The notes under the pieces are model-generated. The model searched no databases. It was given only the letters and a program-made list of their open reading frames with translations, and was not told the origin of the DNA. 64,000 bases of DNA from Pontibacter sp. G13 (GTDB taxonomy: Bacteria; Bacteroidota; Bacteroidia; J057): assembly GCF_031851795.1 (NCBI RefSeq), contig NZ_CP134696.1, positions 1,054,001 through 1,118,000 on the forward strand. The letters are read 5' to 3'. Position numbers and translations under genes: made by a program. This document shows, piece after piece, positions 34,882 to 52,115 of the stretch; the first letter of the stretch is position 1, and every line of letters begins with the position of its first letter.

Positions 34882-36681
34882 ATGAAACAGCCATTGCCGA
34901 TCCTGGTGGTACTCTGGATGTGGATTTCCATATCCGCTGGGGTAGCCCAAGTCAAGTACCAAACCGGGATGAGAGTCATCGACGGAGTTCAATTGCTTCA
35001 AGACAGCAACAACGACAATTTTTACCGGTACATCCCGCAGTTTCCGCGATTCTCCATGCGCCCAGACAGCACGTTTGAATTGTTGTGCATGAAGTATGTA
35101 GGGACTTCGGGAGCGTCTTCCAATGGGGGTATTTTCCATGCGTTGGTGGAATTCAGTCTACCTCCGGCCTATGTAAAACAGTTGGAAGTCGAACTTCAGC
35201 GCGAGGTTCCCGAAGCCCAAATCGTAGGGCCCGTCCAATTGATGCAGGCAGATGAGGATGATTCCCACGGCACCGCCTCCTTTGAAGTGGTCTCCGCCAT
35301 CCTGACAAATACCGAGGGAGACAATCCATTCACCCGAAATGTGATCACCTCTGGTTTTGCACCGCTGCTCCCGGGATCAAAAGCAGCCATTGCAGCCAAT
35401 CTCAATCAAACCGGTGCTTCCCTCCTCTGGGAATCCCTCCAAAGCCCGACCTCTGATGTCTCTGTCTCCATCAGCGGCTATTACGAGGCAGTTGTGGAAG
35501 GATATAACGCCGTGGTATCCGGTGAGGTGGAAACCATCTATGAGCATTTCAGCCAGATCCGCAACAAGTCAGAAGGATACAAGAAGCGCCAACTTCGCAA
35601 TATCGCCGACGAGTTGGTCCAGGAACAGCTATTGAATGTGGAGGTATTCGATCGCTCCGAAGGGTTGGGAATTTCCACCAAGGCCATGGCAGACATTGTG
35701 GAATTGGTTACGGATAAATTGATCGAACTGATGTTTGATGCGGAGACAGGTTGGTCTCAGGTTCCAGATCGTGAGGTCGCCGTCGAGCCCGGGCAATTGC
35801 TCAATCGCCAAGAGCGGAGCTGGTTGTCCAAGACCTTTTCTCTCAAGACGGACAATACGCCCTATTACACAGACAATCAATTTGTCCTGAAAAAACGCGA
35901 AGACATTCGTGCGCACCGATTCTACATGAATCTCAGCCAGAAAACCACGATCAAGGTACCCATTCATACTGCTGGAAACTTGGGCGGAATTTACGGAGAC
36001 TGGGCTGATGAGGAACTGTATTTCAAAATCGTAAACCTCGGCACAGATTTTCAGAGTCGCGATGTTCATTTCCAAGTGGATGGTCGATTTGCGGGTTCCT
36101 TTGATGAGCTCATCAATTCGGTTTCGGTAGAATTTCGCCAAGAGCCGCAGGGCGATCAAGCCATGATCACTGAATCGTTGATGTTTCGTGCAGCCGATCT
36201 GGAAAATCAATTCTTCAAAACCATCCAATATCCAAGGCTGGAAGATGAAGGCGACGATTGGCTCAATTATGACTATCGCATCAGCTGGAACATCAAAGGG
36301 ATGGATGAACCCGTCAACATTCCGAGCTTTGGATGGGCATCTTCCCAAGCCAACAGCATTGCCCTCATTCCCCCGATTGATCGCAAGGAAATCGAAATCG
36401 ACGCAGATCGAGCTTCCTTCGAAGAAGCAGGCATCCACTCCGCATCGATCAAATTCATGGTCATGCTCGGCGGCAAACCACAGGTACAGGAAACGATGGT
36501 TTTAAGAGCCAAGGATGCTGAAAACACCAACGCCATTACGCTTTATGGAGATCCTGATCAAGCCATGGCCTATCAGGTGACTTGGCATACCAAGGAGCAT
36601 GGATCGGTGGATATGCCTGTTCAACTGCTGGAAGACGAATACATGTTCATTCTACCGCCTGCCGACTTGGCTCAAGACTGA
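34882..36681 (+). CDS. P1: secreted protein of the P1-P8 family
   Basis: The 599-residue product has a signal peptide (ILVVLWMWISISAGVAQ). I cannot name the family. It shares with P2-P6 an N-terminal block (FYRYIP...F-E-L-L-C-M-K-Y; GGIFHALVEFSLPPAYVKQL; GPV near 115; GFAPLLPGSKAAIAANLNQTGASLLWESL near 165), a middle anchor near 388 (DFQSRDVHFQVDG, then NSVSVEF) and a terminal beta block (YRISWNIKG, ALIPPIDRKEIEIDADRASFEE). The domains look like beta-sandwiches separated by a helical stretch (about 225-320). No Cys pairs, sortase or type IX C-terminal signal were noted. It opens the cluster, and P2 begins 4 bp after its stop, so the two are tightly coupled. Confidence 0.8.
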   Translation: MKQPLPILVVLWMWISISAGVAQVKYQTGMRVIDGVQLLQDSNNDNFYRYIPQFPRFSMRPDSTFELLCMKYVGTSGASSNGGIFHALVEFSLPPAYVKQLEVELQREVPEAQIVGPVQLMQADEDDSHGTASFEVVSAILTNTEGDNPFTRNVITSGFAPLLPGSKAAIAANLNQTGASLLWESLQSPTSDVSVSISGYYEAVVEGYNAVVSGEVETIYEHFSQIRNKSEGYKKRQLRNIADELVQEQLLNVEVFDRSEGLGISTKAMADIVELVTDKLIELMFDAETGWSQVPDREVAVEPGQLLNRQERSWLSKTFSLKTDNTPYYTDNQFVLKKREDIRAHRFYMNLSQKTTIKVPIHTAGNLGGIYGDWADEELYFKIVNLGTDFQSRDVHFQVDGRFAGSFDELINSVSVEFRQEPQGDQAMITESLMFRAADLENQFFKTIQYPRLEDEGDDWLNYDYRISWNIKGMDEPVNIPSFGWASSQANSIALIPPIDRKEIEIDADRASFEEAGIHSASIKFMVMLGGKPQVQETMVLRAKDAENTNAITLYGDPDQAMAYQVTWHTKEHGSVDMPVQLLEDEYMFILPPADLAQD

Positions 36682-36685
36682 TCCC

Positions 36686-38452
36686 ATGAAACGAATCAGC
36701 ATTTTCGGGATGTTGGGGTTGATATTCGCCCTGACCTCCCAACACGTGGCGGCCCAACAGATTTTGATGGACCGTGGCACACGCGTAGCGGAACTCTGGT
36801 GTTTTCCATTGCTGGATGATCCCGATACCTATGTATATCTGCCATCCGAATCTCGGCTCACTTGGGACCCTGAGCATGAATTGCCGCAATTCAGCTTGCT
36901 GCGCTATGTCATCAATCGACCCGATGAATCCGCGGGAGTAGGTTCTGCCATCACCTCTGCGGACGGAGGCGCCTTGCTCAATTTTCTCATCGAGTACTAC
37001 ACCCCCGAGGAGCAAGTAGACGCCGCGCAATCAGCCCTGCAGGAGCGTATGGACAATGACGATATCGTGCTGAGAGGACCGATTGTCTTCGATCAGGGCC
37101 GATATGCACTTGTTTCCTCCATTCTGCGGGATCAAGCTTCCGAACAAAAAGTGGAAGTACTCACAACAGGTTCCGCTCCTGTACTGGAAGGTTCTCGGAT
37201 CGCCTTCAGCTTCGAGTTGGACCCAGAGAAATCCAAACTTCTGATGGAGAGCTTGACTACAGCAACTTCCGATTTGTCTGTGGTCTTCGACCTGTCCTTT
37301 TCAGGGTTGACGGATAATTACGAGGCGACCATGGAGGTAGATTGGAATCAAGTCTACCAGAGCCAAGATTTCTCTGCTGGAGGAAGTGTCTATTTCGTCG
37401 GTGCAGATGTCGAGCTAGGCTTTGAGAAGCTCTACCGTCAGCAGGCCATCAAACTAGATGTCAAAGGAGAAAGCCCCAATATGGATGGTCTGTTGCAAAC
37501 TGTCTATAACAAATTGCTGGATCTGCTATTTGCACCTGTTCGTCCAGAAGCCATACCCGCGGACCAGCGAGGAGGATTGATGGATGCTTTGGGTGCGGCT
37601 CTTTCGCCGAATGGAGCACTGGGAAGCCGAAACACCACAGGATTTGGGTTGAATGTAGCCTACCGAATGAAGGACTACCGTTCCGAAGGCACATCTAGGC
37701 TTCAGTTTTCTGGAGCGCAGACTGTCGAGCGCCACCACTTCATTTCCTTCAATGCGGGGGACTTGTTCAACCAATATGGCGAAGATGAACGCATGTTCAA
37801 GACCGTACCGCTTTGGGACCCAGACTTTCAGCAGCGGGAGGTGATCGTGACGATGGATGGAACGCTGGAAAACGCATTCGAAGACATGCTCAACAGTGTC
37901 ACGTTGGTACTTCACAAAGAGCATCAAAATGGTCAGGAGTCCTCCCATCAGATCGTGGTCATGCCCCAGCACTTCGAATCAGGCGCTGCTCCACTCAACT
38001 GGGTTTATGGGTCCCACCAAGATACCAATCGCCTCGAATGGCTGAATTACCGCTTTCACACGATTTGGCAATTTCAAGGAGGTGGACAGTATGAAACGCT
38101 TTGGGATACCATCTCTACCGCCGTTGTGAACCTTTACACGCCGTTTTCCACTCGATCCATTGATTTGGAAGGAGATCTGGAATATCTGGTTGAATCAGGC
38201 GTACGCGCAGTTTTGGTGGAGCTCACCTACGACTTTTTCGGAATGCCCCAGCGAGTCAAACAGACCATCCGGATGTCGGACAACCTGGCTGACAAGGGAT
38301 TTCGGATTACGCTTCCGAATGATTCCCCCGAAGTCTCCTACAAATTGACCTACATCATGCGTGAAGGAAGGCCCCTCAGCGCAAAGGGCATCGACGAATT
38401 TGGCTTGATCTTCATCGACGAACTCCCAGAACCTTCGACCGATATGGAATAA
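36686..38452 (+). CDS. P2: secreted protein of the P1-P8 family
   Basis: From ATG 36686 the product has 588 residues with signal peptide ISIFGMLGLIFALTSQHVAAQ. Family blocks: DTYVYLPSESRL, PQFSLLRYVIN, GGALLNFLIEYYTPEEQVDAA, GPIVFDQGRYALVSSIL, TGSAPVLEGSRIAFSFEL, TATSDLSVVFDLSFSG, middle anchor WDPDFQQREVIVTMDG near 377 with NSVTLVLHKE, and the final YRFHTIWQFQGG ... FGLIFIDELPE. The start of the longer frame (36599) lies inside P1 and is not credible. The helical part NLLDLLF-like (TVYNKLLDLLFAPV) at about 273-286 precedes a loop that links the N and C halves. A 126-bp gap follows before P3. Confidence 0.8.
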   Translation: MKRISIFGMLGLIFALTSQHVAAQQILMDRGTRVAELWCFPLLDDPDTYVYLPSESRLTWDPEHELPQFSLLRYVINRPDESAGVGSAITSADGGALLNFLIEYYTPEEQVDAAQSALQERMDNDDIVLRGPIVFDQGRYALVSSILRDQASEQKVEVLTTGSAPVLEGSRIAFSFELDPEKSKLLMESLTTATSDLSVVFDLSFSGLTDNYEATMEVDWNQVYQSQDFSAGGSVYFVGADVELGFEKLYRQQAIKLDVKGESPNMDGLLQTVYNKLLDLLFAPVRPEAIPADQRGGLMDALGAALSPNGALGSRNTTGFGLNVAYRMKDYRSEGTSRLQFSGAQTVERHHFISFNAGDLFNQYGEDERMFKTVPLWDPDFQQREVIVTMDGTLENAFEDMLNSVTLVLHKEHQNGQESSHQIVVMPQHFESGAAPLNWVYGSHQDTNRLEWLNYRFHTIWQFQGGGQYETLWDTISTAVVNLYTPFSTRSIDLEGDLEYLVESGVRAVLVELTYDFFGMPQRVKQTIRMSDNLADKGFRITLPNDSPEVSYKLTYIMREGRPLSAKGIDEFGLIFIDELPEPSTDME

Positions 38453-38578
38453 TCGCATACTCGCTGCAACGCGCAGTGAATAATTGACACTCAACTGTGC
38501 CTGTGATCAGGCGCCCGGAATTCCCATGTACCTGGGGGCACGCCCCTATGGCCCATTTATGCTGAAACCTAGACGAAT
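38453..38578 (+). other. Spacer between P2 and P3
   Basis: The spacer has small inverted repeats (GCCTGTGATCAGGC near 38500; GGGGGCACGCCCC near 38535) without T-runs. It may hold an internal promoter. Confidence 0.35.
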
Positions 38579-40552
38579 ATGAACAGAATCATGCTACTCG
38601 GCCTGATGATCCTCCTGCTTGGCCCAAACTGGGGTTGGAGTCAGGTGGTCGATGGCCAAAACAAGATTACCGTGACCCTCCGAGATGGAACGGTGGTCAC
38701 CTGCTATGGCAAGGCGCAGGCTTTGTCTGACGAGCCTTCCACAGAATTCGAATACATGCCCACCAATTTCCGGTTGGCAGTGAAGGAAGACGGCACGCCC
38801 CAATTCCTGTTTCTCAAATACACCGACGAATCCGCCAATGAAGAAGCTTCCGGCGCGATCCTCCACATGCTCATGGAATTTGGATTGACTCCCGAACAGG
38901 AGCGAGAGGTAGAACGCAAGCTTCGATCAGAGGTTGAGGGGGCTACCCTTCGCGGGATGGTGGATGTCACACCCGAAGAGGAACAATCCATCCGGATCAT
39001 TTCCGCGACCCTCGACGATGGGGAGAGTGTTCCAACGTTGATTCATTCTGGCCGTGCGCCTGTATTTCCTGGGAACAAAATTGCAGTAGCCGCCCGCATG
39101 GATAAGGAGGCTGCGCAATTACTGGATGCGAGCTTCACTCGTACCCGATCTATCACAGACCTATCGGTGACCCTCTCCTACAAATACGCCATGCGCGTTC
39201 CGGCTGCACGAGGATTGCTGGTCGAGGATTGGAGCAAGTTGGATTCCCTGAACCTGGTAGATTCTGCCTTCTATTCGATGGATGAAATCAAGAACAAAGA
39301 CTACGGTGAAAAGGCAGTGAATGCCGCTGTAGGAGCCATTTTTGGGGGAGGAATCGGTGGATTGATCGGTTGGTTCGCCACTGGAAATGACAAGGAAAAA
39401 CATTTCACCTACGAAGACATGCACAACCTCTACCGTGCTTTGGAAGAGGAAGAGGTCATCACCTTGCGATTTGAAGAGAATGTCTCTGATGAGCGGGTGA
39501 CAGAGATTCGAGAGGCATTTTTCCAGCATTTCCTCAACAGCTTCACCGATGCGGTTCCTGAGGAAATTGAACCGATCACGGACGAACAGCGTATGGCCAT
39601 GCCCGACATCAAGAAGGGCAACAGCTACAAATTCAAGCGAGAGTTTGTCGAGACGGTCTATCAAAAACGCCGTCGGGTCTTCAACCTCAACTACGCCTTG
39701 GCGATTGAGCGACCTTTCCAGATCACCGAAAATCTCGCGTCTTGGTACGACCAGGTATCAGACAATCCTGCCTGCGTAGGAACAGTCGTCCTGAATGATC
39801 CATTCTTCCAGCATCGCGATGTACATGTACTGTTGGATTTGGATGCGGAGGACATGATCGGCAAGGAGATGAACTACGTGACTGTCAGTCTTCGCAAACA
39901 GCGGGACGTCCAGGGAGCCAATGATTTCTCCCACCAGTTGACCTTCGACCGTGCATACTTCGAGGAATCCGGCAACCGCAGAACCGTGACTTACTCCAAG
40001 GCACAGGACGGCGATCCCAATGAATACGAATACAAAGTTCAGTGGTCGCTCAGAGGTGGGCACTTGTTCCCGGAAAATGACACAACGTGGACCAAGGGTT
40101 CTTGGCAAGGAATCACTCTGGCACCGCCTGTGCAGCCCAAGCGCGTGCGTTTTGAAGCCGATTTGGATGAATTGAAAGAGCTGGACATCCGCAATGTCAC
40201 GCTACAGCTTCGGTACATGAAGTTTGGCAAGGAGGTCGAAACCAACATGAATATCAGCCTCTATAGCAAACAGCCTTACCTAGAAGAGACCATCTACCTC
40301 GACAAAGACACCCGAGGCTATGCATACCGATTGATTTTCACCCACAAGCGCAAGGGAATCTTGGCTATGCCCTGGGATGCATCCATCAACACCTATTACC
40401 TATTCGCAGTGGTACCGGACGAACTCTACGAAGGCGACGAGACCTTCATCGAGGAAGCCATTGCACGTGGCCAGCAAGCCATGGTAGGCGGTGATGTGGA
40501 CGGCAGTCAAGCCATCCTCAATCAGTTTGAAAGCATTATCTCCAATCAATAG
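38579..40552 (+). CDS. P3: secreted protein of the P1-P8 family
   Basis: The 657-residue product has a signal peptide (IMLLGLMILLLGPNWGWSQ). Blocks: FEYMPTNFRL, PQFLFLKYTD, GAILHMLMEFGLTPEQEREVE, IRIISATLDD, SGRAPVFPGNKIAVAARMDKEAAQLLDASF and the middle anchor LNDPFFQHRDVHVLLDLD near 406 with NYVTVSLRKQ. The end block is EYKVQWSLRGGH, ITLAPPVQPKRVRFEADLDEL, then GYAYRLIFTHKRKG. Unlike the others it has a glycine-zipper-like hydrophobic stretch at about 247-266 (AVGAIFGGGIGGLIGWFATG), which could insert into or contact a membrane. P3 and P4 form a closer pair by sequence. P4 starts 15 bp later. Confidence 0.8.
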   Translation: MNRIMLLGLMILLLGPNWGWSQVVDGQNKITVTLRDGTVVTCYGKAQALSDEPSTEFEYMPTNFRLAVKEDGTPQFLFLKYTDESANEEASGAILHMLMEFGLTPEQEREVERKLRSEVEGATLRGMVDVTPEEEQSIRIISATLDDGESVPTLIHSGRAPVFPGNKIAVAARMDKEAAQLLDASFTRTRSITDLSVTLSYKYAMRVPAARGLLVEDWSKLDSLNLVDSAFYSMDEIKNKDYGEKAVNAAVGAIFGGGIGGLIGWFATGNDKEKHFTYEDMHNLYRALEEEEVITLRFEENVSDERVTEIREAFFQHFLNSFTDAVPEEIEPITDEQRMAMPDIKKGNSYKFKREFVETVYQKRRRVFNLNYALAIERPFQITENLASWYDQVSDNPACVGTVVLNDPFFQHRDVHVLLDLDAEDMIGKEMNYVTVSLRKQRDVQGANDFSHQLTFDRAYFEESGNRRTVTYSKAQDGDPNEYEYKVQWSLRGGHLFPENDTTWTKGSWQGITLAPPVQPKRVRFEADLDELKELDIRNVTLQLRYMKFGKEVETNMNISLYSKQPYLEETIYLDKDTRGYAYRLIFTHKRKGILAMPWDASINTYYLFAVVPDELYEGDETFIEEAIARGQQAMVGGDVDGSQAILNQFESIISNQ

Positions 40553-40567
40553 CGAAACTCCTTCAAC

Positions 40568-42661
40568 ATGAATACCTACCGAACACTTTCACTGGCAGGC
40601 CTGAAAATGGTTTTGGTCCTGCTCTTTGGGTTGACCACTCAATTGGCACAGGCACAGCGCCTATCGCTGGAAAGCAAAATCGAGCTTGTACTGAGCGACA
40701 ACTTGAATATCACGCTGTTCAAGACCATGACCGGCCAGACGTACTACTATCTCCCAGATCCTCAACTGATCAAGTTGGGCCTCAAGGAGTCCGGTGTCCC
40801 TGAATTCCTCTTCCTGAAATTTACCACTGACGAGCGCGAATCCGATGGTGGAGTACAGGGCGCATTGCTTCACTTCCTCATCGAGTGGGGAATGACACCA
40901 GCCCAATTCGCGGAACTCGAGGCCAAGCTCAAAGCGGCCAAAGGACAGGGAGCCAAACTAGCGGGACCCGTCGACCTCAAGCCCGTGGATGGTTCCTCCT
41001 TCCACATCGTCTCGGCAGTTTTGGGAGATGACGATTTCACCTCCAATCTGGTTACCTCTGGATATGCTCCTCCGATGCCGGGTGGAAAAGCCGCAGTAGC
41101 TGCAAGATTGGATGCCGCGGGTGCTCAATTGCTGGATGCAACCTTCAAGGAAACGACCTCCATCACGGACCTTTCCTTGGTGTTGGACTACGAATACACC
41201 ACGTTGGTGAAAGCAGCTCGTGGAGTCCTGAGATACAACCTTAGCATCACACAGACCCAAGGAGACGCCATGGCCTATGATTTCCTGAAAAAGGAGTTGG
41301 ACAACGAGCCTGAGCGCTTTCAAGCTGCATTGGATACCTACAATGCCAACAAAGCTAGCATGAGCAATGACTGCGGACTGGCGGGCGGAATGGGCAATAT
41401 GATCCTTGCCATGCAGGCTATGGATCAGGCGATTGGCAACACCTCCGGAAGCGGCGATACGGGTAGCAATTGGGAGTATGGGGTTTCAGAATCCATGCTG
41501 CGTCGTGTCTACGATTACTTTGTCCAGACGGAACGAATCGTTCTGAAGTGGGAAGAAACGTTGGACGATGAGCGGTTGGCTGTGATGAGAGAGGCATTCT
41601 TTGACTTCTTCCTCAACTCCTTCACGGAGCCAGACATGCCCGATTTCTCCAATGTGGCCGATCTGGGAACTGATTTCGATCCAGAAGCCGCCAACATGAA
41701 GTCCCAAGCTGAAGCCAGTTATTCCTTCAAGTCCTGCACCGAGTTGGAATCCAATCGCACCGTCAACAAGGTCGTTCGTCTGGACAAGATCATCCTGCCA
41801 GTCACCCGTCGTTTTCAGATGGTCTCCAACTTGGCCAGCACCTATGATCAAGCCAAAGATTACGACGAATGTGTCACAGAGCAACGCCTCGACGATCCAT
41901 TCTTCCAACACCGCGACATCAACTTCATTGTCGATTTGGAAGCTCGCGAGTTGTTTGATACCGAAGTCAACTATGTGACGGTGGATGTTTTGAAGAAGCG
42001 GAGCACAGGTCGTGATTTCAACAAGGATTTCACCATTGACGGAGATGATCTCCGCAGATCTGGTGCCTTGAAAATGGTGACCTATTCTCGGGATGATGAC
42101 CGCAATACCGATTCCTATCAGTACAAGGTCCAGTGGAGTTTCAAAGGCGGGTATGTGTATCCTGAGCGTCCACGATTCGTCAAGGGAGACTGGCAGGGAG
42201 TTACGCTTTTTGCGCCCCTATCTCCACGAAAAATCGAGTTCGAGGCCGACTTGGAGGAAATGCGTGAATTGGGCGTCGTGAGAGCAACCCTGCAAGTGCG
42301 ATACTCCAAATTCGGCAAGGAGCACGAAGAGAATATTCCCATCACGGTTTCCAAAAATGAACCCCTGGTAGAGAAAACGATCTTCGTGGATCGCGAGACC
42401 AATGGCTATGCCTACCGGCTGATTCTCACCCACAAGGTACATGGAAAACTCGCGCTTGACTGGCAGACCAAGCTGAATGACGACTATGTGTATGCGATCA
42501 TTCCGAGCGAATTGCTGGAGGAGGACCCCAATTACATCGAGCAATTGATCGAAATCGGGCGTCAGATCATCTCCCCCAACTCCGATGGGACTGTCGATCC
42601 AGATGATGCAATCTTGCAGACATTTGGAGACATCCTCGATCTGGTGATCGACAATCAGTAG
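40568..42661 (+). CDS. P4: secreted protein of the P1-P8 family
   Basis: The 697-residue product has a signal peptide (MVLVLLFGLTTQLAQAQ). Blocks: TYYYLPDPQLI, PEFLFLKFTTD, GALLHFLIEWGMTPAQFAELE, AGPVDLKPVDGSSFHIVSAVL, TSGYAPPMPGGKAAVAARLDAAGAQLLDATF, SITDLSLVLDYEY, middle anchor LDDPFFQHRDINFIVDLE near 441 with NYVTVDVLKK, then YKVQWSFKGGY, FAPLSPRKIEFEADLEEMRELG and GYAYRLILTHKVHGKL. It is the closest relative of P3, particularly over the last 300 residues, and likely arose by tandem duplication. The central region (245-300) is a distinct Asn/Met-rich insertion. A hairpin separates it from P5. Confidence 0.8.
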   Translation: MNTYRTLSLAGLKMVLVLLFGLTTQLAQAQRLSLESKIELVLSDNLNITLFKTMTGQTYYYLPDPQLIKLGLKESGVPEFLFLKFTTDERESDGGVQGALLHFLIEWGMTPAQFAELEAKLKAAKGQGAKLAGPVDLKPVDGSSFHIVSAVLGDDDFTSNLVTSGYAPPMPGGKAAVAARLDAAGAQLLDATFKETTSITDLSLVLDYEYTTLVKAARGVLRYNLSITQTQGDAMAYDFLKKELDNEPERFQAALDTYNANKASMSNDCGLAGGMGNMILAMQAMDQAIGNTSGSGDTGSNWEYGVSESMLRRVYDYFVQTERIVLKWEETLDDERLAVMREAFFDFFLNSFTEPDMPDFSNVADLGTDFDPEAANMKSQAEASYSFKSCTELESNRTVNKVVRLDKIILPVTRRFQMVSNLASTYDQAKDYDECVTEQRLDDPFFQHRDINFIVDLEARELFDTEVNYVTVDVLKKRSTGRDFNKDFTIDGDDLRRSGALKMVTYSRDDDRNTDSYQYKVQWSFKGGYVYPERPRFVKGDWQGVTLFAPLSPRKIEFEADLEEMRELGVVRATLQVRYSKFGKEHEENIPITVSKNEPLVEKTIFVDRETNGYAYRLILTHKVHGKLALDWQTKLNDDYVYAIIPSELLEEDPNYIEQLIEIGRQIISPNSDGTVDPDDAILQTFGDILDLVIDNQ

Positions 42662-42677
42662 CCCCCTTTGTTCATTT

Positions 42678-42702
42678 GGGAAGGGGAGCGACTCCCCTTC
42701 CC
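42678..42702 (+). terminator. Intra-cluster hairpin between P4 and P5
   Basis: GGGAAGGGGA (42678-42687) pairs perfectly with TCCCCTTCCC (42693-42702) around a 5-nt loop, followed by TCAATTTT. It may be a partial terminator that sets lower expression for P5 onward. Confidence 0.65.
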
Positions 42703-42717
42703 TCAATTTTACCTGTC

Positions 42718-44739
42718 ATGAAAAAAATCATCAGCTTGATTGGGGGATTGGTACTGGCAGTCACGGGACTCCAAGCCCAACAGATCATCATCGACCGCCC
42801 AGTCCGTGCAGAGGAATTGACGGTATTTCCTTCGGTTTCGCAAGATCACACCTATTACTACATCTTGGATCAGGCCAGTCTGGCCTATGAAAATGGCAAA
42901 CCTCAGTTTTCCTTTTTGCGATATGTCTCCAACTCCACGGGGACGGACGACAGTCGAGAGGGAGAAGGCGGAGGAATCGTCCATGCATTGGTGAGCCTAG
43001 AAGTGACCCAAGAGCAGATTCAGGATGCAGAACGAGCCTTGCGTAGGGTGGACCCAGAAGGCAAGATTGTGGGCCCGGTTATTTACAGCCGTGGACGATT
43101 TGCCTTGATTTCTTCCTTTGCCCAGCCTGACGGTACCCTTTCGACCCAAGTATTGGGATTGGGCTCTGCCCCTATTCTAGATGGACAGAAGGCCGCCATT
43201 TCCATTCACTTGACCAAGCAAGGGGCCAAACTCCTGTGGGAATCCTTCAAAACGCCTACACCGGATATCTCCTTTTCCTTCGAAATGGAACTACCCGGGT
43301 ACCGCAGTCCCAAGAATGCTGTCATCGAAGCCAATTTCGATCAGATTTATAAGCATGCCACTTTTCAGGCGGGAATTGCCACGCCCTACATTGGTGCAGA
43401 AATCGAGGCCGCATTCGAAGAACTTCGGAGAAATGGCGCCATTACCATCACTCAGGTGGGCGAGGACGAACAATTCAACGAATTGATTGCGACGGCCTAC
43501 AACAAGGTCGCCGAGATGATGTTCGAGCCCATCAATGGATCTGGGAGTCCGTCACTTTCCGATATTACTGCGATGGCTGGATCAGGTTCTAGTCCGCTCG
43601 ATCGGGCAACCGCATTATTGGCACAAAATCGCAACAACCACTTCCAGCAAGTGCGCGAGGAACAAGCTGCCAATCGGAATTCGGGGGAGCATAATTCTGG
43701 TGCTTCCAGCAATTCAGGTGGCAATACTTCGGATGATAGTGCCTCCTCTACAACGACTGAGCCCGAAGAAGCAGAATCTCCCGAAAGTGGCGAGACAACA
43801 TCTTCTGAAGGGGAAGGGGAGACAGCTTCCAGCGAAGACGCTGATTCGGAGGAATCGACAGAAACCCCTGAGGAAGCATCAGAAGGAGATTCAAATGAAT
43901 CCGAAACGCGCCGGTCCTCTGCGCCTCAATTCGCAGCGATCGTCACCTTCAAGATGCGTCGGCAGAAGAAAAGCGGCACCTTCAAGGTCAATCTGAATAA
44001 GTACACCATAGACCAATTGCCCATTCGGTTTGATGAGAACATCGGAGATCTGCGCCGATTCGTAGACGATTCCGATCACTTCCATCAAGTCAATTTGGAC
44101 GACGATTTCTATCGTCAGCGCGTGATTACGGCCTTTCTGGATGGCTACAATGCCACCGATTTCGGGACCTACATCAATTTTGTGAACATCCATCTCACCA
44201 AGCGACATGCGGAAGGAGCCATGACCGAAGCCGATATCCGGATTGACCGGAACAACTTCAATCAGCAAGGCAACAACTTCCAGATGGTCTATGGCTGGAA
44301 GGAAGATCGCGATCGCACCAAGTGGATGGAGTACCAATACGAGGTGAATTGGAGCTTTTTCGGAGGGCATGAAATTGTCCAGCCGATCCAGACCAATACG
44401 TTCTCTGCCATCAACCTTAAACCCCCACTGGAACGCCGCACGTTGACCTTCGAATCCGATCCTGATTACCTGAAAGATCAGGGCGTGCGCGCCATCCAGG
44501 TGACCATCTACTATACGGTTGGCGAGACTGAGCAGATCAAGCAAGTATCGCTCAACACCTTCCGCAACGAGTATTCCAAGACCTTGGATATTCTCTTGCC
44601 CGAGGGGGTGTATGACTATGACTATGAGATTGTCTGGCGAAAACGAGGCAACGGAAGCATTTCTTCCGGCCGCCTGACCTCCAATGAATCGATCCTGTTT
44701 GTAGACGAAGTTCCAGACGAATCCGCCCGCAATGAATAG
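42718..44739 (+). CDS. P5: secreted family protein with acidic Ser/Glu linker
   Basis: From ATG 42718 the product has 673 residues with signal peptide KKIISLIGGLVLAVTGLQAQ. Blocks: TYYYILDQASLAYENGKPQFSFLRYVSN, GGIVHALVSLEVTQEQIQDAE, GPVIYSRGRFALISSF, LGSAPILDGQKAAISIHLTKQGAKLLWESF, TPDISFSFEME, middle anchor LDDDFYRQRVITAFLDG near 460 with NFVNIHLTK, YEVNWSFFGGH and INLKPPLERRTLTFESDPDYL, ending in SILFVDEVPDE. Residues about 319-400 are an acidic low-complexity Ser/Glu/Thr linker between the two halves, which would act as a flexible or negatively charged spacer. P6 is the nearest relative. The gap to P6 is 37 bp. Confidence 0.8.
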   Translation: MKKIISLIGGLVLAVTGLQAQQIIIDRPVRAEELTVFPSVSQDHTYYYILDQASLAYENGKPQFSFLRYVSNSTGTDDSREGEGGGIVHALVSLEVTQEQIQDAERALRRVDPEGKIVGPVIYSRGRFALISSFAQPDGTLSTQVLGLGSAPILDGQKAAISIHLTKQGAKLLWESFKTPTPDISFSFEMELPGYRSPKNAVIEANFDQIYKHATFQAGIATPYIGAEIEAAFEELRRNGAITITQVGEDEQFNELIATAYNKVAEMMFEPINGSGSPSLSDITAMAGSGSSPLDRATALLAQNRNNHFQQVREEQAANRNSGEHNSGASSNSGGNTSDDSASSTTTEPEEAESPESGETTSSEGEGETASSEDADSEESTETPEEASEGDSNESETRRSSAPQFAAIVTFKMRRQKKSGTFKVNLNKYTIDQLPIRFDENIGDLRRFVDDSDHFHQVNLDDDFYRQRVITAFLDGYNATDFGTYINFVNIHLTKRHAEGAMTEADIRIDRNNFNQQGNNFQMVYGWKEDRDRTKWMEYQYEVNWSFFGGHEIVQPIQTNTFSAINLKPPLERRTLTFESDPDYLKDQGVRAIQVTIYYTVGETEQIKQVSLNTFRNEYSKTLDILLPEGVYDYDYEIVWRKRGNGSISSGRLTSNESILFVDEVPDESARNE

Positions 44740-44776
44740 GGCAACCATTACCTTTCAACGCTTTAGCAAAATTGTC

Positions 44777-46702
44777 ATGAATCGCTATTCACATACCCTG
44801 ATCATGGGATGTTGGATGTGTCTGGCAGCGTGGATCTCTCCGCTTCAGGCCCAACAGATCTTGTTCGACAAAGGGGTAGCAGCTGGGGAGCTCAACGTAT
44901 TCCCCGTCCTCAATTCCGATACCGACTTCCGGTATCTCTCCGATAAGGTCCAAGTGGCCAAACATCCCGATGGGAGCCCCATGTTCTCCTTCATCAAATA
45001 CGTTCGGAACACCGACACCGAGGGAGGTTCTTCTTCGATCACCGAATCCAACGAGGCTGGCGGTGTGGTCCACGCGGTCGTCACCCTGGAGGTTCCAGAA
45101 GACATGCGCCGCAATGCGGAGCGCGAACTGCAGCGAATCCGCCCCGGTGCCAAATTGGTGGGCCCCATCATCTATAAATCTGGGACGATTGCCCTGATCT
45201 CTTCAGTTGCTGCCGAGGATGGTCAGTTGGCTGAAAAAGTTGTGGGCATCGGCAGTGCTCCCATTCTGGAAGGTCAGAAAGCGGCTGTGTCGGTCATGCT
45301 CACCAAGGAGGGCGCCGACATTCTCTGGGCAACTTTCCAGACAGGAACCCCGGATTTGAGCTTCCAGTTTGAAATGGATGTCGCTGGTTACCTCTCTCCC
45401 AAGAATGTCACCATCGAGGCCAACTTTGATCAGATTTATCGCCACCGCTCATTTGAAGCTGCGGCTGTCACGCCTGTTTTCGCAGCAGAGATCAAAACAG
45501 CTTTTGATGAACTTGCCAATTCCGGCGCGATCAAGGTCACACAGATCGGGGAAGATGCGGCCTTGGATGCTATGCGTGAAACAGCCTACAATCAGCTTGT
45601 CAACTTGATGTTCGACAAGGTGGGAGGCCAAGGGTTGGAGACATTCGCTCAATTGGCCAATAGTCAAAACCAGACCAGCATGGTGGATCGAGCCACCAAT
45701 ATGCTCACTGCCGCGCGTACCGAAGCCCGTGCTGAAAACAAGCGACTCAGAGATGAAGCCGCTGCGAAGGCTGAAAGAGAAAGACAACACCGGCAACAAG
45801 CGGCGAGATTGATGGACTCTCTGTACCGCGCTCGTGGGCTTCAATACTCCGAACTTAGTCCCGACAGCCAGGACTCCGAAGAGGATGAAGTGGAGCAGGT
45901 TCCGATCCCCGGTATCGCCATTGCAGCTTCATTTGTCATGAAAACCGTGAAGCGCTCTGGCTCCTACAAGATCGATCTGAACAAGTACACCGAGGACACC
46001 CGGACCTTTCCATTCGCAGACAATGTCGGTACGACCTTGAACAGCTGCGAAAGCTGTTTTGCACGCGTCAACCTTGACGATGATCTCTACAAGCAACGCG
46101 AATTGAGCGCTAGTCTTCAGGACATCAACAGCGACGACTTCGGGAGCTATGTGAGCAATGTGGAGGTAGTTCTACGGAAACAGCATCAGGGAGGAGATGT
46201 AACCCTCGCGGATTTGGTCATCAATCAAAGCCGCTTCAATGACTTCGGCAACTCCTTTGAACTTTCCTATGGCTGGAAGCAGGATGTCAATCGCTCCGAA
46301 TGGCTTACCTACGATTACAAAACTCGCTGGAATTTCAGTGGCGGGGTATCTGTGGAAACCGATTGGCAGACCGGAGACTTCGGTAGTATTCCCTTGTATC
46401 CCCCGCTCAAGAAACAGACGGTGTTCGTAGACGTGGATCCATTCCTCGTTTCCGATCAAAACGTCCGTGCAGTGGAAGTGAAACTCTATTACAAACACGG
46501 TGAGCGGGAATTGAGCAAAACCGTCCAGATCCGCACAGCAGGGAATATCCTGTCCCAAAGCGTGGATCTGATCCAACCAGACGGCACCGAATCCTTTGAT
46601 TATCAGATCACATGGTTTGTTTCCGGATCAGCACCGATCCGAGAGTCCCGCAAGACCTATGATGCCAGCACCTTGTACCTCTTTGAAATCGACCGCGGAT
46701 AA
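44777..46702 (+). CDS. P6: secreted family protein with charged helical linker
   Basis: From ATG 44777 the product has 641 residues with a signal peptide (LIMGCWMCLAAWISPLQAQ). Blocks: FRYLSDKVQVAKHPDGSPMFSFIKYVRN, GGVVHAVVTLEVPEDMRRNAE, GPIIYKSGTIALISSV, IGSAPILEGQKAAVSVMLTKEGADILWATF, TPDLSFQFEMDVAGY, middle anchor LDDDLYKQRELSASLQD near 433 with SNVEVVLRKQ, YKTRWNFSGG and IPLYPPLKKQTVFVDVDPFL. Where P5 has an acidic linker, P6 has a charged coiled-coil-like stretch at about 315-371 (RAENKRLRDEAAAKAERERQ and on). The two linkers replace each other at the same hinge. The metalloprotease gene starts 25 bp later. Confidence 0.8.
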   Translation: MNRYSHTLIMGCWMCLAAWISPLQAQQILFDKGVAAGELNVFPVLNSDTDFRYLSDKVQVAKHPDGSPMFSFIKYVRNTDTEGGSSSITESNEAGGVVHAVVTLEVPEDMRRNAERELQRIRPGAKLVGPIIYKSGTIALISSVAAEDGQLAEKVVGIGSAPILEGQKAAVSVMLTKEGADILWATFQTGTPDLSFQFEMDVAGYLSPKNVTIEANFDQIYRHRSFEAAAVTPVFAAEIKTAFDELANSGAIKVTQIGEDAALDAMRETAYNQLVNLMFDKVGGQGLETFAQLANSQNQTSMVDRATNMLTAARTEARAENKRLRDEAAAKAERERQHRQQAARLMDSLYRARGLQYSELSPDSQDSEEDEVEQVPIPGIAIAASFVMKTVKRSGSYKIDLNKYTEDTRTFPFADNVGTTLNSCESCFARVNLDDDLYKQRELSASLQDINSDDFGSYVSNVEVVLRKQHQGGDVTLADLVINQSRFNDFGNSFELSYGWKQDVNRSEWLTYDYKTRWNFSGGVSVETDWQTGDFGSIPLYPPLKKQTVFVDVDPFLVSDQNVRAVEVKLYYKHGERELSKTVQIRTAGNILSQSVDLIQPDGTESFDYQITWFVSGSAPIRESRKTYDASTLYLFEIDRG

Positions 46703-46727
46703 TCCATTCGCCCAAACCAGAAATCTC

Positions 46728-48281
46728 ATGAAATATTGGATCATATTGATCGCGGGTCTCTTGATGATCAGCCCGCTACAGGCTCAGGAAGAATGTGGTT
46801 TCGACACCTACCTTGAGCAATTGCAGGAATCTTCAGAAGGACAATCCATCCTGGATGAAATCCGCGAATGGGTGCTGAATTTCCAGCGCAACTATCCCGT
46901 CAATCCTGACCTTCACCAAAGTCCGGTGACGATTCCAGTGGTCATCCACGTCTTGGAATCTCCGGGTGCACCGACCTTGACAGATGCGAATATCGCCCGT
47001 CAAATGGAAGTGTTGAACCAGAGTTTCAGACTCCAGAACACCTCTGAAGTGGCGACGATTCCCAACGAATTCAAGGTCCACGCCGCGGATCAATTGGTAC
47101 AATTCCAATTGGCCAGACGTAAACCTGACGGCACTGCCACCACTGGCATCAACCGCCATACCACTTCGACGTCTACCTTCTTCTTCCTGACGGATGCCAA
47201 CGCGCCCTCTGAGACTGCCAAGAAAACCAGTGCAGGGGGCCAAGACCCTTGGGATCCCACCCGCTACCTCAACATCTGGGTCTGCAACCTCAAGATGAAT
47301 CCTTCTGCCAGCAACATCCTGTTTGGCTATGGGATTTTCCCGGGTTGGGAGGACCGTTACATGCCGGGGGTAGTGATGAACTTCAATGCATTTGGAGTGG
47401 ATTTGGCACACTTGCATAGCAACAAATCCAAAGGCAGGACCTTGGCCCATGAGGTGGGGCATTACCTAAATCTTCTCCACATCTTCCAAGATGGATGCTC
47501 AAACACCAATGATGAGGTCGCGGATACGCCCAAACAGTCCCCTTCCTATGGCGGCCAATCTCCTACGCACCCTGTAGCCTCCTGCGGCAGCAACGACATG
47601 TTCATGAACTACATGAGCTACGCAATCAACGAAAATCGCAGGATGTTTACGGCTGGTCAGCGAGATCGGATCTTGGCGAATTTCGTGCCCGGTGGCCCAC
47701 GTGCAAGTTTGGCTACCTCCAATGCACTATTTCCTCCGAATGCGCTGACGGTCTCCCACGGTGTATATCTCGAAGCAGCATGGCGTCAATTCCCTGCTTG
47801 GAAGGCTTCAATGGCCATGATTGCCAACTGGGCTTGGAATATGTCCTTGGACGTGGACAAGGTCGTTCAGGATAATCAGCGCCATTGCAGTGCCAATCGT
47901 TTTGATGGAATCCCTGCGACTTTGAGCGATGTGATCTGCGCCTTGCTTTTGACCCCACAGCAGGTAAATGTCTGCTATGACATCGGAAGTTTCTACGAAT
48001 TGATCGAATCGAGACCTCTGACCATCCTGACGGTGAAAAACAACGAATACTACGGCTTGGTGGTGGACGGCATGGTCATGGACAACAGCCGCCAGACAGC
48101 TTTGCTTTCCATCAAGGACCCATTCCAAATCGGCCCGAGAATCGGATTGAATCATCGCGGGGCAGAATACACCGTGGACTACGCGGAATTCATGACCAAC
48201 ATTCTCGAAGGTTTCGCCAATACCCAGACCAAGGTCTACTTCCTCTTCCCGCCGACACAAGAAAGTGTAGCGGGAAATTAA
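46728..48281 (+). CDS. Secreted M43-type zinc protease with inactive-looking papain-like domain
   Basis: From ATG 46728 the product has 517 residues with signal peptide WIILIAGLLMISPLQAQ. Residues 60-325 form a pappalysin-like (M43) metalloprotease: zinc site HEVGHYLNLLH (241-251) and Met-turn MNYMSY (293-298). Residues about 340-510 resemble papain-like C70/C39-type domains: QFPAWKASMAMIANWAW aligns with the usual Q...CWxAxxAM motif but has Ala357 where Cys is expected, and NNEYYGLVVDGM aligns with GHxVVVxG but has Tyr for His. A K-D-P-F-x-I-G segment matches the DPW loop. The second domain is probably a non-catalytic binding module. Sitting in the middle of the P cluster, the protease may process the P proteins. 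Confidence 0.75.
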   Translation: MKYWIILIAGLLMISPLQAQEECGFDTYLEQLQESSEGQSILDEIREWVLNFQRNYPVNPDLHQSPVTIPVVIHVLESPGAPTLTDANIARQMEVLNQSFRLQNTSEVATIPNEFKVHAADQLVQFQLARRKPDGTATTGINRHTTSTSTFFFLTDANAPSETAKKTSAGGQDPWDPTRYLNIWVCNLKMNPSASNILFGYGIFPGWEDRYMPGVVMNFNAFGVDLAHLHSNKSKGRTLAHEVGHYLNLLHIFQDGCSNTNDEVADTPKQSPSYGGQSPTHPVASCGSNDMFMNYMSYAINENRRMFTAGQRDRILANFVPGGPRASLATSNALFPPNALTVSHGVYLEAAWRQFPAWKASMAMIANWAWNMSLDVDKVVQDNQRHCSANRFDGIPATLSDVICALLLTPQQVNVCYDIGSFYELIESRPLTILTVKNNEYYGLVVDGMVMDNSRQTALLSIKDPFQIGPRIGLNHRGAEYTVDYAEFMTNILEGFANTQTKVYFLFPPTQESVAGN

Positions 48282-48332
48282 GACCCTGATCCTCCAAGTC
48301 CTCTTGGCAAAAGGACTCCAATTAATCTTCGT

Positions 48333-48359
48333 GGCATCCGGCTCAAGTAGCTGGATGCC
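48333..48359 (+). terminator. Hairpin before P7
   Basis: GGCATCC (48333-48339) pairs with GGATGCC (48353-48359), with GCT/AGC extending the stem inward, followed by CATTTT. It is weak and may only modulate read-through. Confidence 0.45.
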
Positions 48360-48384
48360 CATTTTCACTCTCAAGCTTAGCGCA

Positions 48385-50691
48385 ATGAAACGAATCTTAT
48401 TGATCAGTCTGTGGATGATACTCGGAGGCTTGATGGGCTCATTGACTGCCCAGACTGCTTTCCAGCATACGACTACCTCTACGAATACCTCCGGCCATAT
48501 CACCACCTTGGATCACTCAACCACCAACGGTAAAGCGGGGATGATAGTGATCGTAGAGCAGGTCTATGGTAAATACAATGACCATGCAATCGGTGTCTGG
48601 TACAACTCTGGAAAATGGAAGATCTTCAACCAAGATCGGCAGCCTATTCCCGCAGGTACCAAGTTCAATATCTTGGTCGTCGATCCAGCGAAATCCAAAC
48701 GCGCATTTGTCCATACGACCGGATCTGCCAATATCAAGAACAACTATACCATCCTCAATCACTCGCTGACCAATGTCAAGCCTAGCGCCACGGTATTGGT
48801 CACACAAGTCTATGGTCGCTACAACACCAGCCCCGTGGGAGTTTGGTATTCTCAAGGCAAATGGACCATTTACAACGAAAAGCGCACCGCCATGCCAGCT
48901 CATACCAAATTCCATGTGCTGGTCTTGAATGCTGGGAACACCAAATCTCAGATTGGCCTGAATGGAAACGCATTTTCCCACTCGGTCACCCAAGCCAGCA
49001 AGGGAACCTACCGGACTGGGCACATCAGTTTTGCCAACCACGTAGGCACCAACAGCAAGAAAGATCGAATCGTATTTGCGACGCCCAACTACAAGAGCAC
49101 CTACAACCCACACATAAAGGGCGTCTGGTATGCCAACAACAAATGGTCCGTATTCAATCACAACCGAAAGGCCATCCCCAATGGCGTGCGATTCAATATG
49201 CTGGCTGTAGATCCTTCTCCCGTGAGAATCATCACCACCCGACCGGAAATTGGGACTGTAATTGTGGACGGCAACACCCGCCCCACCACAGGCACCGTCA
49301 TCCGTCCCAAGCCTACCTTTGAGCCCACTCGGGGCTGGGTGATCGTCGATCGCCCCAAACCCGGCACGACCGAAACTCCCGAGCCTGAATCTGAGGAGGA
49401 AATCTCCCTCGCACCATTGGGTCCTAATCTAGCCGGAGAGGAAATGAAAGAACTGCTGGAAGGGCAATCCTTGGCGGATCTTGCCGACAACTGGAATTTC
49501 TTCCCAAAGGTCTATCCCGATCAAAATGAGCACTCGGGGATCATCTACTATCTTCCCAAAAACTACTCCGTCCAATGGGATGCTAGCACACAGGACTACT
49601 CCCTGTCTATGTACTACCTGAGCTCAACAGGAGACGGGAGGGGCGAAGTGATTGTCACTGCTGAACTTACGCCCAAATTGACCGAGCAGGAAATCGAGGA
49701 AGCGGAAGAATTGCTCTCCAAGCAGTTGCGCAAAGACATCAAGTTGTATCCTATGCCGATCATGAGCACCCCTCAAGTATCGCTCGGGCAGAGTCTGGAG
49801 AATTTCGGGGTTGATCCCAGCAGCCTCCACATCAATGTGCACTCTGACTTTTTGGAGCCCATTGTCCTCAGTTGGAAAATGGATCAACGGGTGGATGACT
49901 TGATCGGCTTTATGATGTCCAATGCTCAATTGGCTGGAAAGCTCCAATTTGAGCCCTACGCCGAGGAGGAACAATTCATCGATGTGCCCATCCGGATGAA
50001 ACTCAACGAGCCTGAGACCTATGGGAAATTGACCTATGAAAATGCCGCTTCCGTTCTCAACGGCACGACCAACCCATTGGACTATCCGATCATTCTTGAA
50101 GAACTGTCCGTGATGCGAAGAAAGGGGAATCGACATACCCTAGAGACGATCACCCTCGGAAACTATCGGGTGGAGCCGGGCATGATGTTCTCCGATTACT
50201 CCGACACCGAGCGGACGCGATTGATCGAGGGAGATATCATTGAGCAAATCTGGCTGAAATACTCGATGGATGCCGACTGCGAAACGTGCAAGGAAACCAT
50301 TTTGGACAAAATCCTCAGCGGTACCTCCCGTGCGCGTGTTCAGGATATCGAATTGGAAGTCCTCAATCCCATCGCGTTCTCAGGAGCTGCCTTGATCAAA
50401 TTGCAGGTTCGTTCCATTCAGGCCGACCCCAATGGCGAAAGCATGGCATACCTCGAAATGCTCACCATCCGCCAAGACTTCACGCCGCTCAAGCCCGGGC
50501 AATTGATGATTCCAGAAGGGGAAAATGCTCAATTTGAGTATCAAGTGAGTCTAGTCATGCCGACGGGAGAAGTCAAGGTAAGCGAATGGGTGGCTCACGA
50601 CAATTTGACCTTGGTGTTGGGAGAGTTCCAACTCAACGAGCTATTTCCGCCTGAGATGGCGACAGAAGAACCCGAATCTCCAGAAGAATGA
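48385..50691 (+). CDS. P7: three DUF7452-like repeats fused to a P-family domain
   Basis: From ATG 48385 the product has 768 residues with signal peptide ILLISLWMILGGLMGSLTAQ. Residues about 25-275 hold three repeats of about 80 residues with the pattern FxHTT...N...ITxLxHSxTN ... QVYGxYN...GVWYxxGKWxIxNxxRxxxPxxTKFxxLV, which I recall as DUF7452 (name from memory). A Pro/Thr-rich linker (276-345) follows. From about 370 the P-family N block returns: IIYYLPKNYSVQWD, SLSMYYLSSTGDG, VTAELTPKLTEQEIEEAEELL. The last 300 residues are beta-rich and more diverged. The repeats may bind a partner or surface glycan. Its stop overlaps the P8 start by 4 bp (ATGA). Confidence 0.75.
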   Translation: MKRILLISLWMILGGLMGSLTAQTAFQHTTTSTNTSGHITTLDHSTTNGKAGMIVIVEQVYGKYNDHAIGVWYNSGKWKIFNQDRQPIPAGTKFNILVVDPAKSKRAFVHTTGSANIKNNYTILNHSLTNVKPSATVLVTQVYGRYNTSPVGVWYSQGKWTIYNEKRTAMPAHTKFHVLVLNAGNTKSQIGLNGNAFSHSVTQASKGTYRTGHISFANHVGTNSKKDRIVFATPNYKSTYNPHIKGVWYANNKWSVFNHNRKAIPNGVRFNMLAVDPSPVRIITTRPEIGTVIVDGNTRPTTGTVIRPKPTFEPTRGWVIVDRPKPGTTETPEPESEEEISLAPLGPNLAGEEMKELLEGQSLADLADNWNFFPKVYPDQNEHSGIIYYLPKNYSVQWDASTQDYSLSMYYLSSTGDGRGEVIVTAELTPKLTEQEIEEAEELLSKQLRKDIKLYPMPIMSTPQVSLGQSLENFGVDPSSLHINVHSDFLEPIVLSWKMDQRVDDLIGFMMSNAQLAGKLQFEPYAEEEQFIDVPIRMKLNEPETYGKLTYENAASVLNGTTNPLDYPIILEELSVMRRKGNRHTLETITLGNYRVEPGMMFSDYSDTERTRLIEGDIIEQIWLKYSMDADCETCKETILDKILSGTSRARVQDIELEVLNPIAFSGAALIKLQVRSIQADPNGESMAYLEMLTIRQDFTPLKPGQLMIPEGENAQFEYQVSLVMPTGEVKVSEWVAHDNLTLVLGEFQLNELFPPEMATEEPESPEE

Positions 50692-52115
50692 CCCTAACAC
50701 CCCGATCATTTGCACGAGCAGCAAGTCTTATTTGGGCTTGCCTGCTTGGTGCTTTCACGATGCTCCCCGCCCAGCCCGTACTTAGTTCGCGGATGTGGAT
50801 CGGGGAAACTGCAGTCTTTCGGGACGCAGGCCAAGTGGGGCTCTTTTGGTATGCACCCAAAGGAATTGCCCTCAAGCGCGATGGACAAGGAAAACCCCAA
50901 GTGCAAGTCATCCAGATGCGGTACCAGGGAGCAGAATGCACCGCGGATGAATCCGAAAGAAGGTTTACCAGCTTGGTACAGCTATCTGTTGTGGCTGACA
51001 ATTGGAGCCAAACAGAGCTGGAGGAGATCAAATCCTACCTTCAGCGGAGGTCGCGGACTCGGGTGTCTCTCAAGGAAATCCCCGCCCATCGGATGGATAC
51101 CCATCTAGTCATGGCCGCACCAGCTTTGGGGGGAAATCCCAAAGTTCTGGGACATGCACGCGAACCCATTCCTACGGCTTGGGAGGAGCGATCCTTTCTC
51201 GTGGGATTGTCGCCGGATGAGGCTCAATTGCTTTGGGCTCAGTTGGAAAAGGGACAAATGGCGATCACAGTGAGCTATGCGCTGATGGGGAAATTCTACC
51301 GCGGACCTTCGGCAGAGATTCACTTGAGCGGAAGTGCCGATATGGTAGAGGAATTGGCGGAAGAATTTGAAGAGATGTTCTTGGAAGAGGGAGAAGATTC
51401 CTTGTTGTTATCCATGCCGCTTAGGCAAGATGCCTTCAATGTGGAGTGGGATCTCGCCCAATGGCCTGACCTGATGCAACAGGTTGATCTGAACGATGGA
51501 TTCCCGCCCGCGTACCCGGCATTGACCATCCGATGCTATGATTTTGCGGATCAAATTCGCCCAGATCTGGCCATGAAGCGAATCGAAGTACAAGCCAAAG
51601 GGCTTCGGGACCAATGGCTCGATCCTCAACAGGCCACGTTCTATGCCAATCAATCGGGGGTAGAGGAGCAGCCGATTTCCTTTCCATTTGTGGTTTCCAT
51701 GGAGCATCCCTACCGATACCGGACCATCAGTTACACCTTCAAGGGCCAAAAGGAAGAATCGGAATGGCAGGAGATTCCCGCTTGTCGGTATCTGATCGAC
51801 ATCACCAGCAATCCCGAGGACAATCCCGTCGAGCATGTCGAATTCGAATGGGAGGCAGATGTCGCCGCGATGGATTCATTGGAAATCGAGACGTTCTTTT
51901 TGGAAATCCGATACGAGTTGGACGGCACTCCGCTGACGCTCAACTCCAAAATCTCGGTGAATGACCATTTGCCTTTGCAAATGCTTTCCTGGACGATGGA
52001 TCGTGGATTCATCCCTCAGCTCCGGTTGACTTGGAATCAGGCAGGAGACCTCTATTGGAAGGAACCAGACTGGCCATCAGATGGATATCTGTATGTTTCC
52101 CCAGCTCAAGAGTGA
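50688..52115 (+). CDS. P8: short divergent member of the P1-P8 family
   Basis: The 475-residue product has a signal peptide (SLIWACLLGAFTMLPAQ). Blocks can be followed: VGLFWYAPKGIALKRDGQGKPQVQVIQMRYQG, SLVQLSVVADNWSQTELEEIKSYL, HLVMAAPALGGNP, SFLVGLSPDEAQLLWAQLEKGQMAITVSYALMG, middle anchor QVDLNDGFPPAYPALTIR near 268, YRTISYTFKGQ, and FEWEADVAAMDSLEIETFFLEIRYELDG. It lacks the long helical middle region of P1-P6. It is translationally coupled with P7, so the two may act as a pair. It ends the cluster; a strong terminator follows. Confidence 0.75.
   Translation: MTLTPRSFARAASLIWACLLGAFTMLPAQPVLSSRMWIGETAVFRDAGQVGLFWYAPKGIALKRDGQGKPQVQVIQMRYQGAECTADESERRFTSLVQLSVVADNWSQTELEEIKSYLQRRSRTRVSLKEIPAHRMDTHLVMAAPALGGNPKVLGHAREPIPTAWEERSFLVGLSPDEAQLLWAQLEKGQMAITVSYALMGKFYRGPSAEIHLSGSADMVEELAEEFEEMFLEEGEDSLLLSMPLRQDAFNVEWDLAQWPDLMQQVDLNDGFPPAYPALTIRCYDFADQIRPDLAMKRIEVQAKGLRDQWLDPQQATFYANQSGVEEQPISFPFVVSMEHPYRYRTISYTFKGQKEESEWQEIPACRYLIDITSNPEDNPVEHVEFEWEADVAAMDSLEIETFFLEIRYELDGTPLTLNSKISVNDHLPLQMLSWTMDRGFIPQLRLTWNQAGDLYWKEPDWPSDGYLYVSPAQE

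Follow-up and report, generated by a model that had tools for sequence, protein, structure and literature searches.

The described systems with which the present operon can best be compared are the EAD-linked peptidase conflict systems (Kaur et al. 2020, PMC7159879), proteins built from FN3 domains, the peptidase families M43, M12A (astacin) and C70 (AvrRpt2-like), and the alpha-2-macroglobulin/complement proteins. The accessible part of the account of the EAD systems does not mention the family of secreted proteins considered here, P1 to P6. Among the open-licence literature, no paper was found on this operon or on DUF7452, the one named domain in P7. Searches of P1 to P6 and P8 against Pfam, NCBIfam, PHROG and PADLOC gave nothing above chance (curated cut-off or E <= 0.001), and their sequences matched no solved structure in the PDB. 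The earlier note on this DNA had spoken of an unnamed family, which is true for P1 to P6 and P8, and by sequence no unrelated known family lays claim to P1 to P6. As far as the open-licence papers go, these proteins fit into no system described so far.

The operon lies at positions 34882-52115 of the window (the whole 64,000-nucleotide stretch of Pontibacter sp. G13 DNA that was analysed) and consists of nine ORFs, head to tail on the plus strand, with no internal stops. A check of the ORFs reproduced exactly the coordinates given before, as well as the gaps of 4, 126, 15, 56, 37, 25, 103 and -4 bp. By ORF, alignment and tree, five of the genes encode secreted subunits as follows: P1 (34882-36681, 599 aa), P3 (38579-40552, 657 aa) and P4 (40568-42661, 697 aa), the last two being of the P3/P4 type with P4 a later duplication, and P5 (42718-44739, 673 aa) and P6 (44777-46702, 641 aa), both of the P5/P6 type, the former with an acidic, Ser/Glu-rich linker and the latter with a charged one. 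P2 (36686-38452, 588 aa) is a further secreted subunit, assigned by ORF, tree and AlphaFold model. Then follow PR (46728-48281), a secreted M43 metallopeptidase with a C-terminal C70-like domain, recognised by profile and motif, which sits in what we call the peptidase slot; P7 (48385-50691, 768 aa), secreted, with three DUF7452 domains and then a conserved part, as defined by Pfam and profile; and P8 (50688-52115, 475 aa), which overlaps P7 by 4 bp and is, by ORF and profile, a secreted, distant full-length member of the family.

On inspection by eye, all nine ORFs begin with a hydrophobic leader, after which comes [AS]-Q, and none of the leaders shows a lipobox. The [AS]-Q agrees with what the Bacteroidetes Q-rule (PMC5837995) describes for Sec/SPI cleavage, and so with the Sec signal peptides that had been proposed for all the proteins. 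The C-terminal sorting domain of type IX secretion (Por_Secre_tail etc.) is absent from P1 to P8 and from PR. A Bacteroidota-type promoter motif was looked for in the 399 bp before P1 and not found. Two genes upstream of P1 there is a secreted-looking protein with a Hint/Vint domain (32444-33424, plus strand; Pfam E 5e-8), for which no link with the operon was seen in the relatives.

All pairs among P1 to P6 match by BLAST, with best HSPs from 5e-8 (P4-P6) to 4e-92 (P5-P6), and in their alignment the anchor motifs noticed earlier do recur in the same order. P8 is only weakly matched to P1 to P6 by BLAST (best 4e-4); by profile-profile comparison it matches the P1 to P6 family nearly end to end (probability 99.8, E 5e-30, 441 columns). 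P7 has no BLAST match to the other members. Its first 300 residues are the three DUF7452 domains (window 48385-49300), which are distinct from the family and occur nowhere else in this genome, and a region of about 75 residues with the 'YYLP' N-terminal motif (residues 375-451) matches the family profile with E 1.7e-4 and probability 49.5. Judged by these matches, P7 would be at best a partial relative, possibly through one common domain. The long P7 copies of L077 and L086 align with it over the full length, and most others align only from about residue 371. The description of eight related proteins therefore stands for the six clear paralogues P1 to P6 and, as a distant member, for P8, and it does not stand as such for P7; since P7 is without a BLAST match and P8 is distant, six paralogues, one distant member and one protein that may share a domain would be the better wording. 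No other paralogues are scattered in the same genome.

For P2, AlphaFold (74 sequences, pLDDT 85.5, pTM 0.67) predicts an N-terminal beta-sandwich with a large alpha/beta insertion, followed by a linker and a pair of FN3-like domains. In these proteins the linker, 29-197 residues long, is the variable and fast-evolving part: the mean identity between P5/P6 proteins is 22% in the linker versus about 50% in the N-terminal domain. Residues 383-576 of P2 match FN3 chains weakly (Foldseek 2ha1, E 6.5e-4), and the VIA score of the FN3-like part against FN3 modules (Z 6.5, 75 residues, rmsd 2.9) is in the range of common arrangements; no FN3 sequence signature was found by Pfam at E <= 1. The N-terminal domain folded alone has a pLDDT of 82.8, and Foldseek returned nothing for it under E 0.1 (best 0.13). 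A Kir channel domain, the best VIA match of this domain (Z 7.9, 115 residues), was rejected and is read as the common sandwich, although Foldseek may have missed a known fold. The matches to viral structures are mostly FN3-like.

The source genome (7.67 Mb) carries a single cluster. In the same family as the source, 4 of 12 other genomes have the cluster, while it was found in 0 of 9 genomes from the rest of the order. In the remainder of the phylum it is rare, as a broad profile picks up 6 of 394 sampled genomes, in each case through distant forms. A scan of 84,980 species yielded 37 operon loci. Those relatives in the collection that bear a name belong to Bacteroidota, and the carriers include Saprospiraceae, Lewinella, Emticicia, Lacihabitans, Chitinophagaceae and others. 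Loci are also present in metagenome bins of Eisenbacteria, Armatimonadota, Planctomycetota, Kiritimatiellae, Gallionellaceae and Myxococcota, where single-contig bin assignments can be wrong. In the tree, the P1 proteins of four non-Bacteroidota bins (L099, L100, L102 and L110) cluster together, apart from Bacteroidota P1. In the Kiritimatiellae bin (L106), the operon is in many fragments and is apparently decaying. A phage origin was considered and rejected (no PHROG match, and none in phage records or viral contigs), as was a plasmid origin, given that just three plasmid records match, and distantly.

The recurring gene order is P7-P8-P1-P2-(P3')-(X)-P3/P4-P5/P6-slot, in which P3' corresponds to the N-terminal half alone (about 225 aa) and P7-P8 are sometimes at the opposite end, as in the window. 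This order is kept in many genomes, from Bacteroidota to the bins of Planctomycetota and Armatimonadota and in part in Myxococcota. A tree built from 126 proteins places P1 (25 rows, SH-aLRT 99) and P2 (28 rows, SH-aLRT 100) each in a single cross-phylum clade, with P3 and P4 together in one group and P5 and P6 in another. The labels change 12 times on this tree versus 78.8 times when shuffled, although they were taken from the best BLAST match and so are not fully independent of it. Because each of the four groups spans the phyla, the four subunit types must be ancient, and they appear to be distinct subunits, none of which takes the place of another. The ancestral set would comprise P1, P2, P3/4, P5/6, P8 and P7. 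Repeated duplication had been noted for the cluster, but recent duplication is not the main story: the four types predate the phylum split (or transfer), and only the P3/P4 and P5/P6 duplications are later. The orthologue distances of P1, P2 and P3 are correlated with one another (Mantel r 0.89, 0.65 and 0.68; 0 of 2000 permutations reach these values). Such change in step is what would be expected for jointly inherited genes, and in itself it does not prove contact.

These observations bear on the multi-subunit assembly that had been suggested for the cluster. The clades across phyla and the co-inheritance (Mantel r 0.65-0.89) fit it, and we consider it partly supported by these comparisons of sequences. 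Of the outcomes named beforehand as refuting it, neither was observed: by sequence P1 to P6 fall in no known family, and many genomes keep the gene order. A secreted hetero-oligomer, with the enzyme either as its cargo or as its processing protease, would fit subunit types that stay together in order and change in step beside a replaceable peptidase. The explanation that we favor, with a probability of roughly 0.45, is a secreted hetero-oligomer of fixed composition that carries an exchangeable, co-secreted peptidase. The distinct secreted subunits would come together, either in the periplasm or extracellularly, as a single hetero-oligomer built through their beta-sandwich and FN3-like domains. 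The complex would carry and place the peptidase, and the occupant of the slot could be replaced by an unrelated enzyme with the remainder unchanged. Attack on other cells or on their polymers, or turnover of surface proteins, may be its role. Against such a complex, it can be said that adjacency and joint history need not make one complex, and that the flavobacterial relatives have a single family gene and one partner.

The protease in the cluster is real. PR is assigned to M43 by the family profile (E 1.3e-18) and by the zinc motif HExxHxxxxxH, here HEVGHYLNLLH; in its C70-like part, as in those of L075 and L076, the catalytic Cys and His are both replaced. Of the 33 loci that can be read downstream of the last P5/P6 gene, 27 have a peptidase-type gene in the slot there, a count that includes the window and G004 and omits contig ends and the broken Kiritimatiellae copy. 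Four types of occupant can be distinguished: M43 with a C70 part lacking Cys and His (the window, L075 and L076); astacin with an intact C70 (L077 and L080; Pfam E 6e-40 and 1e-37); a lone C70 with the catalytic residues kept (L078, L079, L081 and L082; E 1.8e-20); and family Y, secreted proteins of about 460-510 aa with HExxHTQ and without a Pfam match. Of the 19 ORFs grouped as Y, 16 contain the motif HExxH, versus 4 of 144 unrelated neighbouring ORFs, and family Y may be regarded as an undescribed candidate zinc peptidase family. Its members include L100:8238-9641, L102:11997-13424 and others (alignment A4), with an EG[IL]A motif downstream of HExxHTQ. An ORF of L101 that clustered with Y was discarded as an overlap artefact. 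The proposal of a dedicated protease has therefore to be replaced, as no single fixed enzyme but an exchangeable slot with unrelated peptidases is found. In six loci (L084, L097, L101, L108, L109 and L110) the adjacent peptidase is missing, and the Y copy of G004 (L050:6656-8089) has lost HExxH; this speaks against the favored reading, in that proteolysis may not be essential.

A second candidate enzyme, X, is a secreted protein of about 235-270 aa encoded between P3' and P3 in 17 loci (for example, L081:7173-7946; alignment A10) and is not present in the window. In 12 of 12 aligned rows, X retains one His and one Cys, with the invariant His preceding an invariant NC, and the two members that were scanned have no Pfam match. 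The conserved arrangement of His before Cys is like that of permuted papain-like enzymes, so X is a candidate papain-like protein of the His...Cys kind.

Alternatively, the peptidase might be a maturation or trigger enzyme that cuts each subunit at the linker joining the N-terminal domain to the two FN3-like domains and thereby activates or releases it. It would agree with this that the linker alone evolves fast, and that many kinds of peptidase are tied to the secreted and the leaderless arrays alike. However, uncut linkers are often variable too, peptidases of unrelated specificities would all have to recognise the same linkers, and five or six loci have no adjacent peptidase. We therefore consider a maturation enzyme unlikely.

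The relatives outside the secreted operons bear on two other explanations. By tblastn, P6 matches one Pararhizobium plasmid and two Paracoccus plasmids, which carry rows of at least 4 long family proteins without leaders and with a longer C-terminal part. The neighbour of the Pararhizobium array is a C39/C70-like protein (GTCVPTS...GGHAVL, by eye; no Pfam match). Neighbours of the Paracoccus array are trypsin-EAD1, EAD1-AAA, an annotated ATP-binding protein, PLD, tyrosinase and a second trypsin; these genes can be seen in L048 and L113 (plasmid pNSM5TCa, about 119000-145000). EAD1 adjoins the Paracoccus array only, and no EAD or STAND component was found in the window or in the secreted relatives tested. 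In G163 (L068/L114), from another class of the same phylum as the source, a leaderless row is followed by two caspase (C14) genes (E 3e-19 and 9e-24). The P7-like proteins P0005 and P0006 of the leaderless arrays are weakly similar to P7 (E 0.003-0.006), and their supposed P8 counterpart has no match to P8. Flavobacteriaceae have a two-gene form, with one family gene and one partner (L069, L070 and L073). In L073:6561-14068 this form adjoins a papain-family protease and an N-acetylmuramidase with a peptidoglycan-binding domain.

The flavobacterial forms with one family gene only would suit separate, co-regulated secreted binding proteins or adhesins, spread by duplication without forming a single complex, next to a peptidase with its own substrates. 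FN3-like domains are common in adhesins, and the DUF7452 repeats of P7 resemble an added binding part. This also seems improbable to us, because the strict order, the cross-phylum P1 and P2 clades and the co-inheritance exceed what co-regulated adhesins need, and P1 and P2 cannot vary freely in copy number. A weapon for antagonism or predation, whose subunits would dock on other cells with the peptidase as effector, is quite improbable. In its favor, swappable enzymes in one slot would be typical of effector systems, and caspases, EAD1 proteins, PLD and N-acetylmuramidase are encoded near relatives; against it, the window operon has no immunity gene, translocation part or toxin domain, the enzymes of the slot are ordinary secreted peptidases, and the leaderless relatives may have another job.

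Taken further, the hetero-oligomer with an exchangeable peptidase could be a new extracellular proteolytic machine, with a fixed shell of paralogues, an interchangeable peptidase cargo and an ancestry shared with the leaderless caspase and trypsin-EAD arrays, which is possible although rather doubtful. A multi-gene secreted system without a family name that is kept in order across several phyla is rare in one window. Unrelated peptidases in one slot offer a clear test of a scaffold design with an exchangeable enzyme, and the HExxH family Y and the papain-like candidate X are by-products of the analysis.

In comparison with the known systems, P2 would be like FN3 proteins in its two C-terminal domains, which are FN3-like in the model; unlike them, it has no Pfam FN3 match, its scores lie below the level of kinship and no counterpart was found for its N-terminal domain. 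The sandwich domains, the variable linker and the link with peptidases recall alpha-2-macroglobulin and complement, but there is no sequence match to the macroglobulin and thioester domains, and the weak structural matches probably reflect the common sandwich fold. Members of M43, M12A and C70 fill the slot after P5/P6; they are partners of the array and not the array itself, and the M43-fused C70 lacks Cys and His. As far as the accessible part of their description goes, the EAD-linked systems (PMC7159879) differ from the window operon, which is secreted and without EAD, STAND and vWA, and resemble the family in that some leaderless relatives adjoin trypsin-EAD1 and EAD1-AAA. Through such relatives, placed beside caspases and EAD proteins, this extracellular system could be tied to bacterial cell-death and defence networks.
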